Shown here: one piece after another, positions 6,646 to 32,251 of the stretch | Layout: each line of letters begins with the position of its first letter | Numbering within the stretch: position 1 is the first letter of the stretch | Assembly (NCBI GenBank): GCA_902609675.1 | Contig: CACLST010000007.1 | Span: forward strand, 1 to 47,574 | DNA length: 47,574 bases | Direction of reading: 5' to 3' | From: an uncultured Pelagibacteraceae bacterium | Lineage (GTDB): Bacteria > Pseudomonadota > Alphaproteobacteria > Pelagibacterales > Pelagibacteraceae | Program-made: the position numbers and the translations under genes | The notes under the pieces: model-generated | The model's database searches: none | Seen by the model: only the letters and a program-made list of their open reading frames with translations | Told to the model about the DNA's origin: nothing

Positions 6646-7710
6646 TCAAATTTTTGGCTCTTGTTGTGTCATGCAATGAATAGCCCCAAAACCCCAAATT
6701 AAATCACTACAATCAATTCCAATAACTTTTCTGTTTGTAAAAAATTTTCTAAAAATTTTTATAACTTTTTTGTCCTCCTTTACATTAAATACTGGAACCA
6801 AAACTGTTTTATTGCTTATGAAAAAATTTAAATAACTCGCTGGAACACGAATTCTGTCAATGATAACTGGGCTTGGCATTGGAATCTTTATAATTTTAAA
6901 TTTTTTTCCATTTTCATCAGAACTTTTACTTAATATTTTTAAATTTTCTCTAAGAGATTTGTAATTTTTATCTGATCTATTTTTTTCTTCAGCAATCATA
7001 ATTGTACTTTTTGAAACAAATCTTGCGATATCATCGATATGCCCGTGTGTGTCATCTCCAACAATTCCTTTATTTAACCAAATAAAATTTTTCGCATTCA
7101 AATATTTTGAAAACAGATTTTCATAGTCGATTTTTTTGAAGCCTTTATTTCTCTCTTGTTTACTACTTAATAAGCACTCTCTTGTTAGCAGTATGGAGCC
7201 CGATCCATTATTATCAAATGCACCTCCTTCCATTACTACTCTTTTAAATTTGTTTGAATTTACTTTTTTAGGCAAAATACTCTCAATATTTAAGTAACTA
7301 CTAATATGGTTATTGATTTTGTTATCATTTCTGAAATTTTTATATTTTGACCAGGCATTAAATTTAAAATCAAGCATGGTCTTTTTTCTTTTTTTTTTGT
7401 TGACCAAAAATATTGGTCCAGAATCTCTTAACCAAAGCCTGTCTGTCTCAAGTTTATGAAATTTAATGTTAGATATATTACAACCCATTTTTTTTAAAAA
7501 TATTCTTGTGGTATCAATACTTTTGGTATTATTGAGTAATAAATCTATTCTTTGATGTTTTGTTAAATATTTGATTATTTTTCCAACTACATTTGGAATC
7601 TTTTCAAATAATCCAGGCCAATCATTTTTATTATGAGGCCAAGCCATCCAAACTGATTTTTGAGGCTCCCATTCTGCTGGCATTCTAAATTCATTTATTT
7701 TTTTATTCAT
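6646..7710 (-). CDS. aguA: Agmatine deiminase
   Basis: Converts agmatine to N-carbamoylputrescine and ammonia. The 354-residue protein has the pattern of the peptidyl-arginine-deiminase/agmatine-deiminase family: MPAEWEPQKSVWMAWPHN at the N-terminus, LWLRDSGPIF, VMEGGAFDNNGSG, the catalytic GDDTHGHIDD and the nucleophilic cysteine in GAIHCMTQQ (Cys346, near the C-terminus). The usual GGGNIHC is GFGAIHC here, a mild variation. The start lies 8 bp inside aguB, the next enzyme of the pathway, and it is the last gene of a four-gene polyamine operon. Confidence 0.92.
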   Translation of the reverse strand: MNKKINEFRMPAEWEPQKSVWMAWPHNKNDWPGLFEKIPNVVGKIIKYLTKHQRIDLLLNNTKSIDTTRIFLKKMGCNISNIKFHKLETDRLWLRDSGPIFLVNKKKRKKTMLDFKFNAWSKYKNFRNDNKINNHISSYLNIESILPKKVNSNKFKRVVMEGGAFDNNGSGSILLTRECLLSSKQERNKGFKKIDYENLFSKYLNAKNFIWLNKGIVGDDTHGHIDDIARFVSKSTIMIAEEKNRSDKNYKSLRENLKILSKSSDENGKKFKIIKIPMPSPVIIDRIRVPASYLNFFISNKTVLVPVFNVKEDKKVIKIFRKFFTNRKVIGIDCSDLIWGFGAIHCMTQQEPKI

Positions 7711-8584
7711 CTTCAGGATTTTTGAGAATATCTTTGTAAAATTCAGTTCTTCTGTCTCTTAAAAAAGGCCAGTGCTGCCTAGTAGTATCTATTTTTTTAT
7801 AATCTATTTCACAAACTAAAATATCCTCTTTTTTATTTCCTGCTTTTGCAATTACTTTCCCACTAGGATCTATCACCATTGAATTACCCCAAAATTCAAT
7901 TTTTTTTTTTCCTTTTGTTTCTATCCCAACTCTATTTATAGCAGCCACATAAGTTCCGTTAGCAATAGCATGAGATTTTTGCATTGTGATCCAAGAATCT
8001 AATTGAGATTTTCCAAACTTTTTTTTTTCTTTTGGATGCCATCCAATAGCAGTAGGATAAAAAATAATTTGAGCCCCTTTTAAGGCCGTTAATCTAGCTG
8101 CTTCGGGAAACCATTGATCCCAACATATAAGAGGACCTATCTTTCCAAATTTTGTCTTAACACTTTTAAATCCAAGGTCTCCAGGACTGAAATAAAATTT
8201 TTCATAATAGCCTGGGTCATCAGGTATATGCATCTTACGATATTTAGATAGAATGTTACCATTTTCATTAATAATGATACTAGTATTATGATAAAACCCA
8301 GATGTTTTTTTTTCAAACATCGTTATATTTAATACAACACCAAGCTCTTTTGCTATATCGCAAAATATTCTAGAGGTTGTTCCTGGAATTTTTTCTGCTA
8401 ATTTAAAGTTTGAATGACTTTCTGTTTGGCAAAAATAATTAGTCAAAAATAGCTCAGGAAGACAAATTATCTTTGCTTTTTTTTTTGCCGCTTTTTTAAT
8501 ATTTTTTATAGCTAAATCAATATTAGATTGAATAGTACCTAAAGATTTACTTTGTATTAAACCGATTTTGATTTTTTTGATCAT
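7703..8584 (-). CDS. aguB: N-carbamoylputrescine amidase (nitrilase superfamily)
   Basis: Hydrolyses N-carbamoylputrescine to putrescine, CO2 and ammonia, completing the agmatine route started by AguA. About 293 residues with the Glu-Lys-Cys triad of the nitrilase fold: Glu in CLPELF (about residue 44), Lys in YRKMHIPDD (about 117) and Cys in LICWDQWFPEAAR (about 154). I use the ATG ending at 8584; a TTG one codon upstream is also open. It sits 3 bp after the preceding gene and overlaps aguA by 8 bp, so all four genes form one unit. Confidence 0.92.
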   Translation of the reverse strand: MIKKIKIGLIQSKSLGTIQSNIDLAIKNIKKAAKKKAKIICLPELFLTNYFCQTESHSNFKLAEKIPGTTSRIFCDIAKELGVVLNITMFEKKTSGFYHNTSIIINENGNILSKYRKMHIPDDPGYYEKFYFSPGDLGFKSVKTKFGKIGPLICWDQWFPEAARLTALKGAQIIFYPTAIGWHPKEKKKFGKSQLDSWITMQKSHAIANGTYVAAINRVGIETKGKKKIEFWGNSMVIDPSGKVIAKAGNKKEDILVCEIDYKKIDTTRQHWPFLRDRRTEFYKDILKNPEDE

Positions 8585-8587
8585 CAA

Positions 8588-9628
8588 TCAAAATATCTTG
8601 GAAAAATTTTTTCTCTCTCTATTTTTCCATTCACCTTTATGATAGGCGTCACTTGCTATTAAGGGTAATACACTTGTTGCTTCTGCAAAAACCATTTGCT
8701 CTTTGGTAATATCTACTTTGCCCCATGAGCTTGCTTCTTTTAGTGTTGAGCTACTGCACGCTCCATCTCTAGAATCAGCAACTGTTATTTGAATAGCATA
8801 TTTATGCATATCTACATCTTTACCTAAAAGTTCAGCGCATATGACAGTGTCTTGAATAAAATTTTTAGGCACTCCCCCTCCAATCATAAAAAGACCTGAT
8901 CCTTTAGATTTAATTTTAATTTCAGTTAGTTCTCTAAACTCTCGTATTGAGTCGATTGTGATATGATTTTTTGGATTTCTTTCTTGATGCATTACAAGCC
9001 CAAATCCTGCGCTTGAGTCAGTAAAAGCTGGACAAAAAATTGGAACGTTGTTGTCATAGGCAACCTCTATTAATGAATCTTTCTTCTTTGCGTTAGTTTT
9101 AAGATATTTGCCAACCTCTTTTATAAATTCTCTTGATGTATAACTTTTAGGCTCTAATTGATCTGCAATTTCTCCAATAGTTTTATCACACATCTGAAGC
9201 TCTTCTTCATCAATATAAGTGTCATATATTCTATCAACGTAGTTATTTCTTAGCTCTGTATCATCTTGATATTGTGATCCCTGATAATGTTTGAAACCAA
9301 GCGATTCAAAGAAATCCATATCAATTATCGAAGCTCCAGTAGCTACTATTGCATCTACCATATTATACTTAACTAAATCTCTATAAATATGCATACATCC
9401 AGCAGCAGACGTTGATCCTGCAAGTGTTAAAAAGATTGTACAATCCTTATCTTTTATCATTTCATTATAAATATTTGCTGCATTTGCAGTCTCTCTTGAA
9501 ACGAAAGACATTTTTTCCATTGAAGAAACGATTTTTCTAGCATCAAAAGAAGTTATATCAATATGCTCTACTTCTTTACTCAGTAAATCACTTTTTCTAT
9601 TACTTGATTTGTTTTTATTATCTGACAT
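8588..9628 (-). CDS. Deoxyhypusine-synthase-like polyamine enzyme
   Basis: A 346-residue protein of the deoxyhypusine synthase fold. Visible motifs include LTLAGSTSAAGCMH, the NAD-site GGGVPKNF, and SSWGKV with Lys304 in the place of the catalytic lysine that carries the aminobutyl imine in the eukaryotic enzyme; the Glu and Trp before it are also kept. Bacteria lack the eIF5A target, so the likely acceptor is a small amine: the NAD-dependent transfer of an aminobutyl group to putrescine would give homospermidine. Its place between a PLP decarboxylase (TAATG overlap) and aguB supports polyamine metabolism. The fold and lysine are seen; the exact substrate is inference. Confidence 0.8.
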   Translation of the reverse strand: MSDNKNKSSNRKSDLLSKEVEHIDITSFDARKIVSSMEKMSFVSRETANAANIYNEMIKDKDCTIFLTLAGSTSAAGCMHIYRDLVKYNMVDAIVATGASIIDMDFFESLGFKHYQGSQYQDDTELRNNYVDRIYDTYIDEEELQMCDKTIGEIADQLEPKSYTSREFIKEVGKYLKTNAKKKDSLIEVAYDNNVPIFCPAFTDSSAGFGLVMHQERNPKNHITIDSIREFRELTEIKIKSKGSGLFMIGGGVPKNFIQDTVICAELLGKDVDMHKYAIQITVADSRDGACSSSTLKEASSWGKVDITKEQMVFAEATSVLPLIASDAYHKGEWKNRERKNFSKIF

Positions 9629-10806
9629 TAAGCAACAAGAAACTCTTTATTTGCTTCTTTGTCGTACATCGTCATGATTGGATTATCCTCAACTTCGTAA
9701 ATATCATCTGAGTAAAATCCATTAAAATTAGTTCTAAAAGTTAATCCATACGCTCCCAGCTGTCCTAACTCTATATAATCATTTTCTTTTATATTATTTG
9801 GTAAAATAAAAGGACCTTTCATATAATCCATACTATCACAAGTTGGACCATAGAAGTCAAATGATGTTAATTTCTTGGAGATTATTCTTCCATCAGTTAT
9901 CATTTTTGATGGATAAACTATGTTAGGAACACCTGCATCAAACAAAGTTCCGTATGTTCCATCATTTATATAAAGTTTTTGTTTTTTTCTTAAATCAACT
10001 CTTACAATTGTTGAACCACTTTCTGCAACAATCGCTCTTCCAGGTTCACAAATAATTTCTGGAAGCTTATCCAATTTTAAATTATTTAAACCTTTTTTAA
10101 TTTCATTAAAGTAAGCATTTAAAGATTGAGGAATAAGATCAGGGTAAATGGTTGGAAAGCCACCTCCAACATTGATTACATCGGGAATAATTTTTGTTTT
10201 TTTAATTATATTACTGATTTCAAATATTCCTTTTGAATAAGATATAGGGTGCATACATTGTGAACCAACATGAAAACTAAGTCCAATTTTTTTAGAATAC
10301 TGTTTTGTTAATCTCAGTAGTCCAGCTGCTTCATTATTAATAGCTCCAAATTTTTTTGATAAATCAATCTCAGCATGTTCATTAGATACAGAAACTCTAA
10401 CAAATAATTCTAAGTCTTTAGCGTAATTAGTACTTTCTAAAATTTTTATCAATTCATCTTTAGTATCTAAAGAAAAGGCCTTAACATTATATTCAAAATA
10501 TGCCTCCTTAATACTTTCTCTACTTTTAACTGTATGCATATAGGAACAGTTCGCATCTGGACTTATTTTTCTTATAGCCTCTATTTCTTTAATAGATGCT
10601 ACGTCAAAACGATTAATACCACTTTCAACAATAGTTTTAAGAACTACTGGATGAGGGTTAGTTTTTAACGCATAAAGTATTTTTCCTGGGAAATTTTTTT
10701 GAAAATATTTAGAAGCCAATTTAATTGACTCTTTTCTAATACAATAAACAGGTCCTGTTGGTCTCAGTTGATTAACTAATTCTTCAACTGACTTAAATTT
10801 TTGCAT
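9628..10806 (-). CDS. Ornithine/lysine-type PLP decarboxylase (fold type III)
   Basis: Makes a diamine, most likely putrescine from ornithine. The 392-residue protein has the alanine-racemase-fold decarboxylase signatures: PLP lysine in YALKTNPHP (Lys48), SFHVGSQC, NVGGGFP, CEPGRAIVAESG and the active-site cysteine with the following Asp in GPTCDSMDY (Cys323, Asp324), as in ornithine decarboxylases. Diaminopimelate decarboxylase is unlikely because that Cys-Asp pair is ODC-like. AGAGG sits about ten bases before the ATG. First gene of the polyamine operon; its leader contains a terminator-like hairpin and a competing helix with the start codon. Confidence 0.85.
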   Translation of the reverse strand: MQKFKSVEELVNQLRPTGPVYCIRKESIKLASKYFQKNFPGKILYALKTNPHPVVLKTIVESGINRFDVASIKEIEAIRKISPDANCSYMHTVKSRESIKEAYFEYNVKAFSLDTKDELIKILESTNYAKDLELFVRVSVSNEHAEIDLSKKFGAINNEAAGLLRLTKQYSKKIGLSFHVGSQCMHPISYSKGIFEISNIIKKTKIIPDVINVGGGFPTIYPDLIPQSLNAYFNEIKKGLNNLKLDKLPEIICEPGRAIVAESGSTIVRVDLRKKQKLYINDGTYGTLFDAGVPNIVYPSKMITDGRIISKKLTSFDFYGPTCDSMDYMKGPFILPNNIKENDYIELGQLGAYGLTFRTNFNGFYSDDIYEVEDNPIMTMYDKEANKEFLVA

Positions 10807-10882
10807 ATCTGCACCTCTAAAAAAAATTTACAAAAAAAACCTGCATATCACGTATGCAAGTTTCATAAATGCAGCATTTATG
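10801..10882 (-). promoter_or_regulatory. Structured leader of the polyamine operon: candidate attenuator/switch
   Basis: On the minus strand, a 19-nt palindrome with 9-bp arms (10882-10864) is followed by CTTGCATA-CGTGA-TATGCAGG (10860-10840), an eight-pair stem with one G-U, then eight T (10839-10832), which is the form of an intrinsic terminator. The ATG of the decarboxylase lies 26 nt further on. The 5' arm TTGCATA (10859-10853) is also a perfect complement of TATGCAA over the start codon (10807-10801), so the two pairings exclude each other. No minus-strand gene lies upstream that would need terminating, since the next gene is divergent. Known alphaproteobacterial ornithine decarboxylases can carry a speF-type leader RNA; I cannot confirm a match. 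Confidence 0.6.
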
Positions 10883-10916
10883 GGAAAAAATTAATAATGT
10901 AAAGTAAATAATGCTA

Positions 10917-10946
10917 TTGAAATATTAAAATTCACTTCCATATAAG
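10917..10946 (+). promoter_or_regulatory. Promoter of regA, apparently leaderless
   Basis: TTGAAA at 10917-10922 and TATAAG at 10941-10946 with an 18-bp spacer. Only four bases separate the -10 box from the ATG at 10951, so transcription should start at or next to the start codon. The same hexamers and spacer, preceded by CCA, occur upstream of the hsp20 gene. Confidence 0.55.
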
Positions 10947-10950
10947 GGCT

Positions 10951-11514
10951 ATGATTAACCAACCAATACTTCAGAAATTAAGTGATTTTGAGGATAAATC
11001 GCTTTTGATCGTAGACGATGACAATCCATTTAGACAAAGATTGGCTAGAGCTATGGAAAAAAAAGGTTTTACAGTTACACAAGCTGAGAGTGTAAAAATT
11101 GGCATTGAGACCGTAAAATCACAAAGTCCAGCATTTGCTGTTGTGGATCTTAGATTAAATGATGGTAATGGATTAGAGGTAGTAAAAGAAATTCAAAAGG
11201 GAAATCTTAAAAGCAGAATTATTATGTTAACTGGATATGGTAATATCCCTACGGCAGTTGCTGCAATTAAAGAGGGCGCAATCGATTATATTGCTAAGCC
11301 TGCAGATGCAGATGATGTTGAAAAAGCACTTTTAGCTGATCCAAATCAAAAACCTGCTCCTCCTGAAAACCCGATGTCGGCGGATAGAGTAAAGTGGGAG
11401 CATATACACAGAGTTTTTGAGTTATGTAACAGAAATGTCTCTGAAACTGCACGAAGACTAAAAATGCATAGAAGAACTCTTCAGAGAATATTATCCAAAA
11501 GATCTCCAAGATAA
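10951..11514 (+). CDS. regA: RegA/ActR/PrrA-type redox response regulator
   Basis: A 187-residue two-domain regulator. The receiver has the acidic pair in LLIVDDDNPF, phospho-acceptor Asp66 in VVDLRLNDGNG and the lysine in YIAKPADADD. A proline-rich linker leads to a Fis-type helix-turn-helix (residues about 154-187) ending SETARRLKMHRRTLQRIL, nearly invariant in the RegA/ActR/PrrA group that controls respiration, energy and carbon metabolism in alphaproteobacteria. Its usual partner kinase RegB is not in the window, so it is encoded elsewhere or lost. It is divergent from the polyamine operon, with 144 bp between. Confidence 0.92.
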   Translation: MINQPILQKLSDFEDKSLLIVDDDNPFRQRLARAMEKKGFTVTQAESVKIGIETVKSQSPAFAVVDLRLNDGNGLEVVKEIQKGNLKSRIIMLTGYGNIPTAVAAIKEGAIDYIAKPADADDVEKALLADPNQKPAPPENPMSADRVKWEHIHRVFELCNRNVSETARRLKMHRRTLQRILSKRSPR

Positions 11515-11515
11515 C

Positions 11516-12445
11516 CTAATTTTTTGTAAGTCTTAAAAATACATCTTCAAGATCTCCATCATCGGTTGAAATATCTTGTATCGTTATATCTTGTTTTTTA
11601 ATTTCAGAAATTATTGCATCAATGCTTAGCTTACTCTTCTCATACGATAAAACTAACCTCTTTCCATCATTTGATATAACTTTTAATGACTCAAAGGTAT
11701 TGTCGTTAATATTAGTTTTTTTATCTGTGGTGACATATACAATTTTTGTTTGAATTCTTTCTAAGAGATTTTTTGTTGTATCCAAAGCTACTAATCTTCC
11801 TCCACTTAGAATACCAATCCTATCACACATTTTTTCTGCTTCCTCAAGATAATGAGTTGTTAGTATTGTTGTTACCCCTTGTTTGTTCAAAGATTTCACA
11901 TTTTCCCACAATGTATTTCTAAGCTCTACATCAACTCCTGCAGTAGGCTCATCTAAAATTATTATTGGAGGTTGATGTACCATAGCTTTTGCTACAAGCA
12001 ATCTTCTCTTCATACCACCTGATAAAGCTCTAGCATAACTGTCAGCTTGTTCCTCTAATGATACCAACTTCAATATAGTGTCTGTAATTCTGTCTTTTTC
12101 TCTAATTCCATACAGCCCTGCTTGAAGCTCTAAAAGCTTTCTGGGACTAAAAAATGGATCGAAGTTTACCTCTTGTGGAACAATTCCAATTGAGGCCCTA
12201 ACTTGTCTTGGATTTTTATCTAAATTAAATCCCCAAACATTTACTTCACCTTCAGTTTTTACAACTGACCCACCTAATATGTTTATAAACGTACTCTTTC
12301 CAGCGCCATTAGGTCCTAATAACCCAAAAATTTCACCCTCTTTCACTTCTAAGTTTAAATTATTAAGAGCATGTATTTGTTTAGATCCGTTTTTTGAATA
12401 TACTTTATTCAAGTTTTTAACAGTTAATACGTTTTTTTTATTCAT
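11516..12445 (-). CDS. ABC transporter ATP-binding protein (ABC-2/exporter type)
   Basis: A 309-residue ATPase with Walker A GPNGAGKST, ABC signature LSGGMKRRL, Walker B IIILDEPTAGVD and the H-loop TTHYLEEAEKMCDRIG. The first domain is CcmA/YadG-like, followed by about 80 residues of C-terminal extension typical of ATPases paired with ABC-2 permeases that export lipids, polysaccharides or drugs. No permease gene is next to it in the window, so the partner must lie elsewhere. It is convergent with regA (1 bp between them) and divergent from polA. The substrate cannot be told. Confidence 0.85.
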   Translation of the reverse strand: MNKKNVLTVKNLNKVYSKNGSKQIHALNNLNLEVKEGEIFGLLGPNGAGKSTFINILGGSVVKTEGEVNVWGFNLDKNPRQVRASIGIVPQEVNFDPFFSPRKLLELQAGLYGIREKDRITDTILKLVSLEEQADSYARALSGGMKRRLLVAKAMVHQPPIIILDEPTAGVDVELRNTLWENVKSLNKQGVTTILTTHYLEEAEKMCDRIGILSGGRLVALDTTKNLLERIQTKIVYVTTDKKTNINDNTFESLKVISNDGKRLVLSYEKSKLSIDAIISEIKKQDITIQDISTDDGDLEDVFLRLTKN

Positions 12446-31186: not shown

Positions 31187-32251
31187 TTATTGAGGAATAT
31201 CTCCTTCTACTCCTTTCACATATACATTCATTCCTGCTAACATACCATCGTCAGCTACTGCGCCTTCAGCAACAAGGATATTTCCCTTTTGATCATAAAT
31301 TGGACCTGTAAAAGAGTGTGCCTTACCAGAAGCTAAGTCTTTTTGAAGTTGCTCAACTTCTTTAATTAAATCACTTCCCATTGCAGAATTATAAGGAGCC
31401 ATCGCTACCATTCCTTCTTTTAATCCATGCCAAGTATCTTGTTGTTTCCAAGTACCATCTCTTGCTGCAATTGATCTTTCCACATAGTAAGGTGCCCAAT
31501 CATCAATAATTGACGTTAATATAGATTTTGGAGCAAATCTTTGCATATCACTTGCTTGACCAAATGACCAAACTCCTGCTTTTTCTGCAACTTGTACCGG
31601 AGCAGTACTATCAGTATGTTGCATAATTATATCCGCACCTTGATCAATCAAAGCTTGAGCTGCTTCAGACTCTTTTCCTGGATCATACCAAGTAAAAACC
31701 CAGACAATTTTTGTTTTAATATCAGGATTTACTTTTTGAGCGGCTAATGTCATTGCATTAATTCCTCTTATAACTTCAGGAATTGGAAAAGAAGCAATGT
31801 ATCCAATAGTATTTGTCTTTGTCATCTTTCCAGCCATATGTCCTAATAAAGTTCTACCTTCATAAAACCTTGCAGAATATGTTGAGACATTTGAATGCTC
31901 TCTTTTATAGCCAGTTGCATGTTCAAATTTTACATTTGGAAAATCTTTAGCAACCTTGTTTGTTGGATCCATATATCCAAAACTAGTCGTAAATATTAGG
32001 TCATGACCAGATTGTGCTAATTGTCTTATAACTCTTTCTGCATCAGCACCTTCAGGTACACTTTCTACATAAGTAGTTTTTATACCCAAAGCTTCCACTG
32101 CATTTCTTCCTTCATGGTGTTGGTATGTCCATCCATGGTCTCCAGTTGGACCAACATAAACAAAACCAACTTTAAATTCTGCATTTGCATTTAAGCTAAA
32201 GCCAAGCAAAAATAATACAGAAATTAAACTTCTTAAAAAAAATTTATACAT
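31187..32251 (-). CDS. BMP-family ABC transporter substrate-binding protein
   Basis: A 354-residue periplasmic protein with a 24-residue signal peptide ending ANA before EFKVGFVYVGP. The body is a BMP/Med-type binding fold: GDHGWTYQHHEGRNAVE, the DLIFTTSFGY hinge, GADIIMQHTDSTAPVQVAEKAGVWSFG and GMLAGMNVYVKGVEGDIP at the end. Relatives bind nucleosides or purine-like compounds. AAAGGGG is a strong ribosome site before the ATG. It follows the permease gene by 88 bp and may also have its own promoter (TTGACT at 32298-32293 on the minus strand). Ends at a shared terminator. Confidence 0.92.
   Translation of the reverse strand: MYKFFLRSLISVLFLLGFSLNANAEFKVGFVYVGPTGDHGWTYQHHEGRNAVEALGIKTTYVESVPEGADAERVIRQLAQSGHDLIFTTSFGYMDPTNKVAKDFPNVKFEHATGYKREHSNVSTYSARFYEGRTLLGHMAGKMTKTNTIGYIASFPIPEVIRGINAMTLAAQKVNPDIKTKIVWVFTWYDPGKESEAAQALIDQGADIIMQHTDSTAPVQVAEKAGVWSFGQASDMQRFAPKSILTSIIDDWAPYYVERSIAARDGTWKQQDTWHGLKEGMVAMAPYNSAMGSDLIKEVEQLQKDLASGKAHSFTGPIYDQKGNILVAEGAVADDGMLAGMNVYVKGVEGDIPQ

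Follow-up and report, generated by a model that had tools for sequence, protein, structure and literature searches.

A conserved terminator-like leader hairpin on a SAR11 polyamine operon

Genes and leader at the locus

The window, by which we mean the whole 47,574-nt stretch of DNA analysed, comes from a SAR11 bacterium, and its decarboxylase is up to 99% identical to those of its closest relatives, whose records are titled Pelagibacteraceae. This decarboxylase is the first gene of a polyamine operon on the minus strand and is separated by an intergenic region of 144 nt from a divergent regulator gene:

10951-11514, plus strand: actR, ActR/RegA-type regulator, divergent from the decarboxylase gene
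9628..10806, minus strand: PLP decarboxylase of the Orn/DAP/Arg family, operon gene 1 (Pfam PF02784/PF00278)
8588..9628, minus strand: deoxyhypusine-synthase family, 1,9-bis(guanidino)-5-aza-nonane synthase model (NF002699, 577 bits, above the cut-off of 500)
7703..8587, minus strand: N-carbamoylputrescine amidase-like (TIGR03381, 295 bits, under the cut-off of 410)
6646..7710, minus strand: agmatine deiminase-like (PF04371; NCBIfam models under cut-off)
11516-12445, minus strand: ABC ATPase, the nearest minus-strand gene upstream of the leader, 677 nt off and beyond the opposed actR

The best solved-structure matches of the decarboxylase (9628..10806) are the lysine/ornithine decarboxylases 2plj and 5gjm. 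Divergent actR lies upstream of the decarboxylase gene in 249 of 250 loci; the sole locus lacking an upstream actR match (L185, genus g5) has the ABC gene upstream. Immediately before actR, at window 10917-10945 on the plus strand, stands TTGAAA-N17-ATATAA, which can be seen by eye in many relatives as well and is probably the actR promoter, which would make the actR mRNA nearly leaderless.

SAR11 bacteria are reported to outnumber all other heterotrophic bacteria of the marine plankton, and they are thought to depend more than others on post-transcriptional control (PMC13198564), and their carbon oxidation often lacks transcriptional regulation (PMC8437039). A conserved leader on a SAR11 polyamine operon that matches no Rfam family is a concrete, testable control point for polyamine metabolism.

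A preliminary description of the window had placed a terminator-like hairpin followed by eight T ahead of the decarboxylase. Both were found there, with a stem longer than claimed (12 pairs, 10864-10836) and a T8 that ends 25 nt before the ATG, whose A is at 10806. In the direction of transcription the leader region contains:

10899..10904, minus strand: CTTTAC, the -35 predicted for the operon; occurs in 174 of 183 distinct leaders
10877..10882, minus strand: CATAAA, predicted -10 from its spacing to CTTTAC
10864..10882, minus strand: 9-bp inverted repeat CATAAATGC-T-GCATTTATG (10882-10874 and 10872-10864), overlapping the predicted -10 and start point
10836..10864, minus strand: hairpin of 12 pairs at the predicted 5' end, GAAACTTGCATA-CGTGA-TATGCAGGTTTT, from fold, covariation and shuffle tests
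10860-10840, minus strand: hairpin core as read from the sequence, CTTGCATA (10860-10853), loop CGTGA (10852-10848) and TATGCAGG (10847-10840)
10832..10839, minus strand: first U8 tract, touching the hairpin (U7 to U10 in 113 genus-type strings)
10827..10831, minus strand: GTAAA, spacer between the two U tracts; in more distant members of the genus mostly R-UUAAA
10819..10826, minus strand: second U8 tract (U7 to U10 in 113 genus-type strings)
10814..10817, minus strand: GAGG, Shine-Dalgarno-like by sequence, G-rich in relatives
10801..10807, minus strand: TATGCAA across the start codon, complement of the hairpin arm TTGCATA, unsupported as a helix

The CTTTAC and CATAAA elements are predicted to form the promoter of the operon, which a sigma-70 scan did not call. 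Among spacings of 13-19 nt tried between CTTTAC and C(A/T)TAA(A/T), 16 nt scored best in 152 of 174 leaders. In the promoter tally, five distance values above 300 were taken as mis-anchored CTTTAC matches and scored as misses. The spacing predicts a start point about 7 nt past the -10, near 10870. The distance from CTTTAC to the first paired base of the hairpin is 34-36 nt in 90 of 112 tallied leaders, and because of this fixed distance the operon mRNA probably begins about 6 nt ahead of the hairpin, with a predicted leader length of about 65 nt.

One terminator-like hairpin was found in 701 nt, against 0.3 expected. Across the 47.6-kb window, 14 hairpin+T6 sites were listed by script, three of them intergenic, and two intergenic sites combine U8 with a hairpin of -12 kcal/mol or better: the decarboxylase leader and one other. 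The latter, at window 31143 on the minus strand, has a -15 kcal/mol hairpin with T8 located 44 nt beyond the gene at 31187-32251; its energy is the lowest of the 14 sites listed, and it looks like an ordinary terminator. A generic terminator scan of 20 kb gave 7 sites vs 6.5 by chance, which gives no clear sign that the host genome uses hairpin terminators as a rule. Taken whole, the 171-nt region is no more stable than its shuffles (z -0.70; 45 of 200 shuffles equally good), and the folding signal resides in the hairpin rather than in the region overall. By eye, few of the 45 window ORFs have a Shine-Dalgarno-like sequence, the GAGG of the decarboxylase being one.

Conservation of the hairpin within the genus and beyond

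We compared 252 loci, of which 250 had a usable gene start (L002 and L096 were dropped) and many repeated one another. Of the 181 distinct leaders among them, 166 contain the U motif; the remaining 15 all come from other genera and gave no hairpin string. The distinct hairpin strings number 124, of which 11 with the layout of other genera were set aside and 113 have the genus layout, including two from other genera (L163 of g14 and L164 of g11). In the genus layout the order is hairpin, U8, RUUAAA, second U8, ribosome site and AUG, and the junction between the hairpin and its U7-U10 is gapless in all 113 leaders. Stem sequence varies widely across this set, from type A (GCATA/TATGC) to type B (AAAGUUUUU/AAAAAGACUUU).

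The hairpin is conserved and selected as RNA; comparison across SAR11 leaders bears out a covarying, terminator-like structure in the polyamine-operon leader. In 112 of 113 leaders the hairpin is more stable than 95% of composition shuffles (mean z -4.3), and when halves are traded between leaders the mean energy weakens from -8.4 to -3.8 kcal/mol. Covariation was assessed on 70 of the 72 type-A strings, L076 and L210 having been moved to the type-B alignment. Two-sided cells numbered 29 vs 9.6 when shuffled (reached in 0 of 500 shuffles), two-sided changes affected 4 pairs vs 1.8 (2 of 500), and there were 19 further pair types vs 15.1 (0 of 500). Pairing holds in 93.9% of cells and drops to 35-63% when the partner is slid by 1-3 columns, a comparison that favours the true structure since the structure was derived from the same 70 sequences. 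On a tree of the actR region, one pair underwent at least 17 pair-state changes and another at least 20, unpaired and gapped states counted. The AU-rich type-B hairpins consist almost entirely of A-U pairs and are weak, at -6.3 kcal/mol on average; they pass the same alignment-free shuffle test in 43 of 43 leaders. MAFFT/RNAalifold found no consensus structure for these 43, probably owing to register shifts in the T runs.

A covariance model of type A has matches at E<1e-4 in 26 of 61 genus genomes, none of the 26 containing a second match at E<0.001; type-B leaders score weakly with it because it was built from type A. In 24 of the 26 the match lies directly before a placed decarboxylase gene, and the genes of the other two (G040 and G042) are outside that listing. 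The U motif was considered as a genome-wide element and rejected: the pattern occurs in 36 of 41 genomes, and among the 30 matches listed, 16 are decarboxylase leaders and 14, by eye, have no ribosome site and start behind them.

Support for the hairpin in other genera is uneven. A hairpin can begin 28-36 nt past CTTTAC in 16 of 17 leaders from these genera (34 nt in seven), in a search that itself began at 28 nt past CTTTAC; L170 was the one of the 17 for which no hairpin was obtained, and in L184 and L185 such a leader, including the hairpin-U8 arrangement in L185, is not visible by eye. These hairpins enclose the U motif and have no U8 behind them (in g4, CUUUGUGUAA follows), and their arms differ (AAGG/CCUU, AAGAG/CUCUU, AAGCU/AGCUU). 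In a fixed 44-nt region, which clipped part of the L188 hairpin, 5% or fewer of the shuffles are as stable in 8 of 21 leaders, and whole-leader z values of 18 leaders (-1.4 to 1.8) are not clearly better than shuffles. If the hairpins are homologous, the structure would be older than the terminator-like U8, which would have appeared in the genus and in L163 and L164. Leaders L166, L172, L179 and others (g2, g4) have UGUGU...ACACA, seen by eye and in some folds, which could pair over 5 bp and leave the Shine-Dalgarno sequence in the loop.

Candidate mechanisms

The preliminary description had further proposed that the terminator and a helix over the start codon are mutually exclusive and that polyamine or ornithine controls the choice. 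The pairing is present in the window clade, where TTGCATA (10859-10853) could pair at every base with TATGCAA (10807-10801); the exclusive helix does not covary and finds no support in relatives. Seven or more start-complementary bases occur in 41 of 166 distinct leaders and in 371 of 1660 with swapped starts, which is not beyond chance, and own arms average 5.49 pairs with the start vs 5.54 when swapped. Among type-A strings, the TTGCAT arm is kept in 20 of 25 with the start ATGAAA, ATGGAA or GTGAAA and occurs in 36 of 47 with ATGCAA (the 47 include the type-B-like L076 and L210), and it is absent from the 41 type-B strings listed. Since the arm persists alongside starts that it does not match, and pairs with its own start no better than with a swapped one, we rejected this switch as a candidate and regard it as highly improbable. 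Ligand sensing finds no footing in the predicted transcript either: by promoter geometry only about 6 nt would precede the hairpin, so that no room is visible for an upstream aptamer or antiterminator. Neither the start-codon helix nor the helix with the second U tract provides a conserved aptamer or alternative pairing with covariation, as would be expected of a riboswitch.

The perfect 9-bp repeat that had been suggested as a tuner of this choice is present in the window, but repeats of 8 bp or more occur in only 14 of 113 leaders. Composition shuffles reach 8 bp in 0.2% of cases, and the mean over the 113 leaders is 4.8 bp vs 3.8 when shuffled. Because the repeat overlaps the predicted -10 and start point, most of it would be outside the RNA; we rejected it as a widely conserved RNA element, and it is possibly a DNA operator. 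In the window clade a 12-codon ORF, MKLAYVICRFFL (10865-10829, minus strand), crosses the hairpin. As a leader peptide it was discarded, being not conserved in relatives: a search for ATG starts only found none within the region covered in 70 of 113 leaders, and an ORF of at least 10 codons in 21 of 113.

Our preferred, still tentative reading, to which we give a probability of about 0.45, is a promoter-proximal intrinsic attenuator on the polyamine operon, without a visible ligand sensor. The mRNA would start a few nucleotides before the conserved hairpin, RNA polymerase would stop part of the time at the hairpin-U8, about 40 nt after the start, and only read-through transcripts would yield the enzymes. 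As in an intrinsic terminator, a stable hairpin stands directly before a U-rich tract, with weak stems in type B; as the hairpin abuts U8 throughout the genus, such partial stopping is what RNA polymerase most likely does there. That the only other intergenic hairpin+U8 at -12 kcal/mol or better lies just past a gene end speaks for this reading; the weak type-B hairpins, the other-genus hairpins without a U8 behind, the near-chance yield of the generic terminator scan and the unremarkable fold of the whole 171-nt region speak against it. The second U8 is not accounted for by termination, and with no visible antiterminator or sensor it is hard to see why an attenuator would be conserved. A bolder possibility, which we consider a long shot, is that the weak 5'-terminal hairpin-U8 itself senses polyamines, which would stabilise it, increase termination and so provide feedback that needs neither aptamer nor protein, while the second U8 would set ribosome loading on the transcripts that escape.

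It is quite possible, instead, that the leader serves ribosome loading or mRNA stability, the 5' stem-loop protecting the message and keeping U8-RUUAAA-U8 single-stranded before the Shine-Dalgarno sequence for S1 or Hfq. Such an element accounts for both U tracts, for how close they are to the Shine-Dalgarno site and for the placement at the 5' end, and it explains the second U8 and the other-genus hairpins, which start at a similar place where termination is impossible, better than an attenuator does. S1-bound U-rich translation enhancers have been described (PMC7769764), and an upstream U tract is not a general feature of the window, since T6 or longer within 40 nt upstream occurs for 3 of 45 ORFs, the decarboxylase among them. 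Ribosome loading does not, however, require the zero-gap junction between hairpin and U tract seen in 113 leaders or U tracts free of A or C, and in other genera the U motif sits inside the hairpin; the zero-gap junction and the strict U tract are why attenuation is favoured. The two are not exclusive.

The second U tract could also be read as one side of a helix, UUAAAUUUUU with AAAAAUUUAA (codons 2-5), that masks the ribosome site and forms a gate, either thermometer-like or under the control of a protein. Counting G-U pairs, 147 of 166 distinct leaders could form some ungapped helix of at least 8 pairs in which their final 40 nt meet the gene's first 18 nt, and in other genera a start-site helix replaces the hairpin in the minimum-energy fold of at least 5 of 18 leaders. 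Codons 3 and 4 are nearly invariant, AAA in 160 of 162 and TTT in 161 of 162 respectively, a constancy that ranks 2nd of 22 Lys columns and 1st of 16 Phe columns. Yet own starts pair no better than swapped ones (9.52 vs 9.63) and little better than synonymous recodings (9.14), the helix is AT-only and weak, and early codons are often AT-rich, which could also explain the constancy; we judge such a gate improbable. Equally doubtful, in our view, is an insulator that ends transcripts from the ABC gene (11516-12445) running antisense through actR. The convergent stop codons of actR and the ABC gene leave almost no space for a terminator between them, but the hairpin sits past the operon's own predicted promoter and would halt the operon as well, and room for a promoter downstream of it is not visible. 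The divergent position of actR in 249 of 250 loci fits an insulator, although it leaves synteny uninformative as a test. The observation that no upstream gene plainly needs a terminator here stands, the nearest minus-strand gene being 677 nt off, behind actR. The leader is real, conserved and ordinary in kind.

Comparison with described leaders

At the gathering score no Rfam family was found in the window or in five related loci. A match to the alphaproteobacterial speF leader (RF00518), which the preliminary description had held possible, did not turn up in a covariance search of the window, nor at E<=10 in 10500-11250. The model had no match in the host's own genome and was silent in the control genomes of that search too; in a separate search it scored in 3 of 76 genomes of the class. 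Like the SAR11 leader, speF precedes a COG0019-type decarboxylase gene in alphaproteobacteria (PMC1273637, Corbino 2005). It is described there as a long leader with a long bulged stem-loop, the construct spanning -400 to +3, and no ligand was identified among those tested. With 153 model positions, speF is unlike the SAR11 leader of about 65 nt and one simple hairpin, and the 144-nt intergenic region does not contain a long leader with an 80-nt bulged stem-loop.

The Salmonella speF leader with orf34 likewise regulates polyamine synthesis from the leader, in part through premature termination, but requires an upstream ORF and Rho (PMC6386406), whereas 70 of 113 SAR11 leaders have no ATG within the region searched. 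Among the structured RNA candidates reported for SAR11 (Meyer 2009, PMC2704228), one is a hairpin followed by a U track of 6-9 nt in about half of the examples; it resembles the present leader in this order and differs in adjoining rhtB and other genes. By term search, the main text of that paper does not contain 'decarboxylase', 'polyamine' or 'ornithine', and that of the SAR11 polyamine paper (PMC8437039) does not contain 'riboswitch'; Pelagibacter passages in PMC2965389 deal with rpsL. In the literature searched, mostly titles and the beginnings of abstracts, we recognised no description of the SAR11 decarboxylase leader.

The standby site of E. coli tisB also combines a structure at the 5' end with a single-stranded region for ribosome standby, but there the ribosome site is sequestered and the standby region lies 100 nt upstream (PMC7708055), whereas the SAR11 U tract adjoins the ribosome site.

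In the E. coli rnd leader, a terminator-like stem-loop and U8 likewise stand directly upstream of the ribosome site. These elements, reportedly described by Zhang and Deutscher in 1992, are said to aid ribosome loading or stability. The SAR11 leader differs in its two U8 tracts, its gene and its predicted 5'-terminal position, with a relation in sequence not shown; its anatomy is nonetheless like that of an rnd-type U-rich enhancer.
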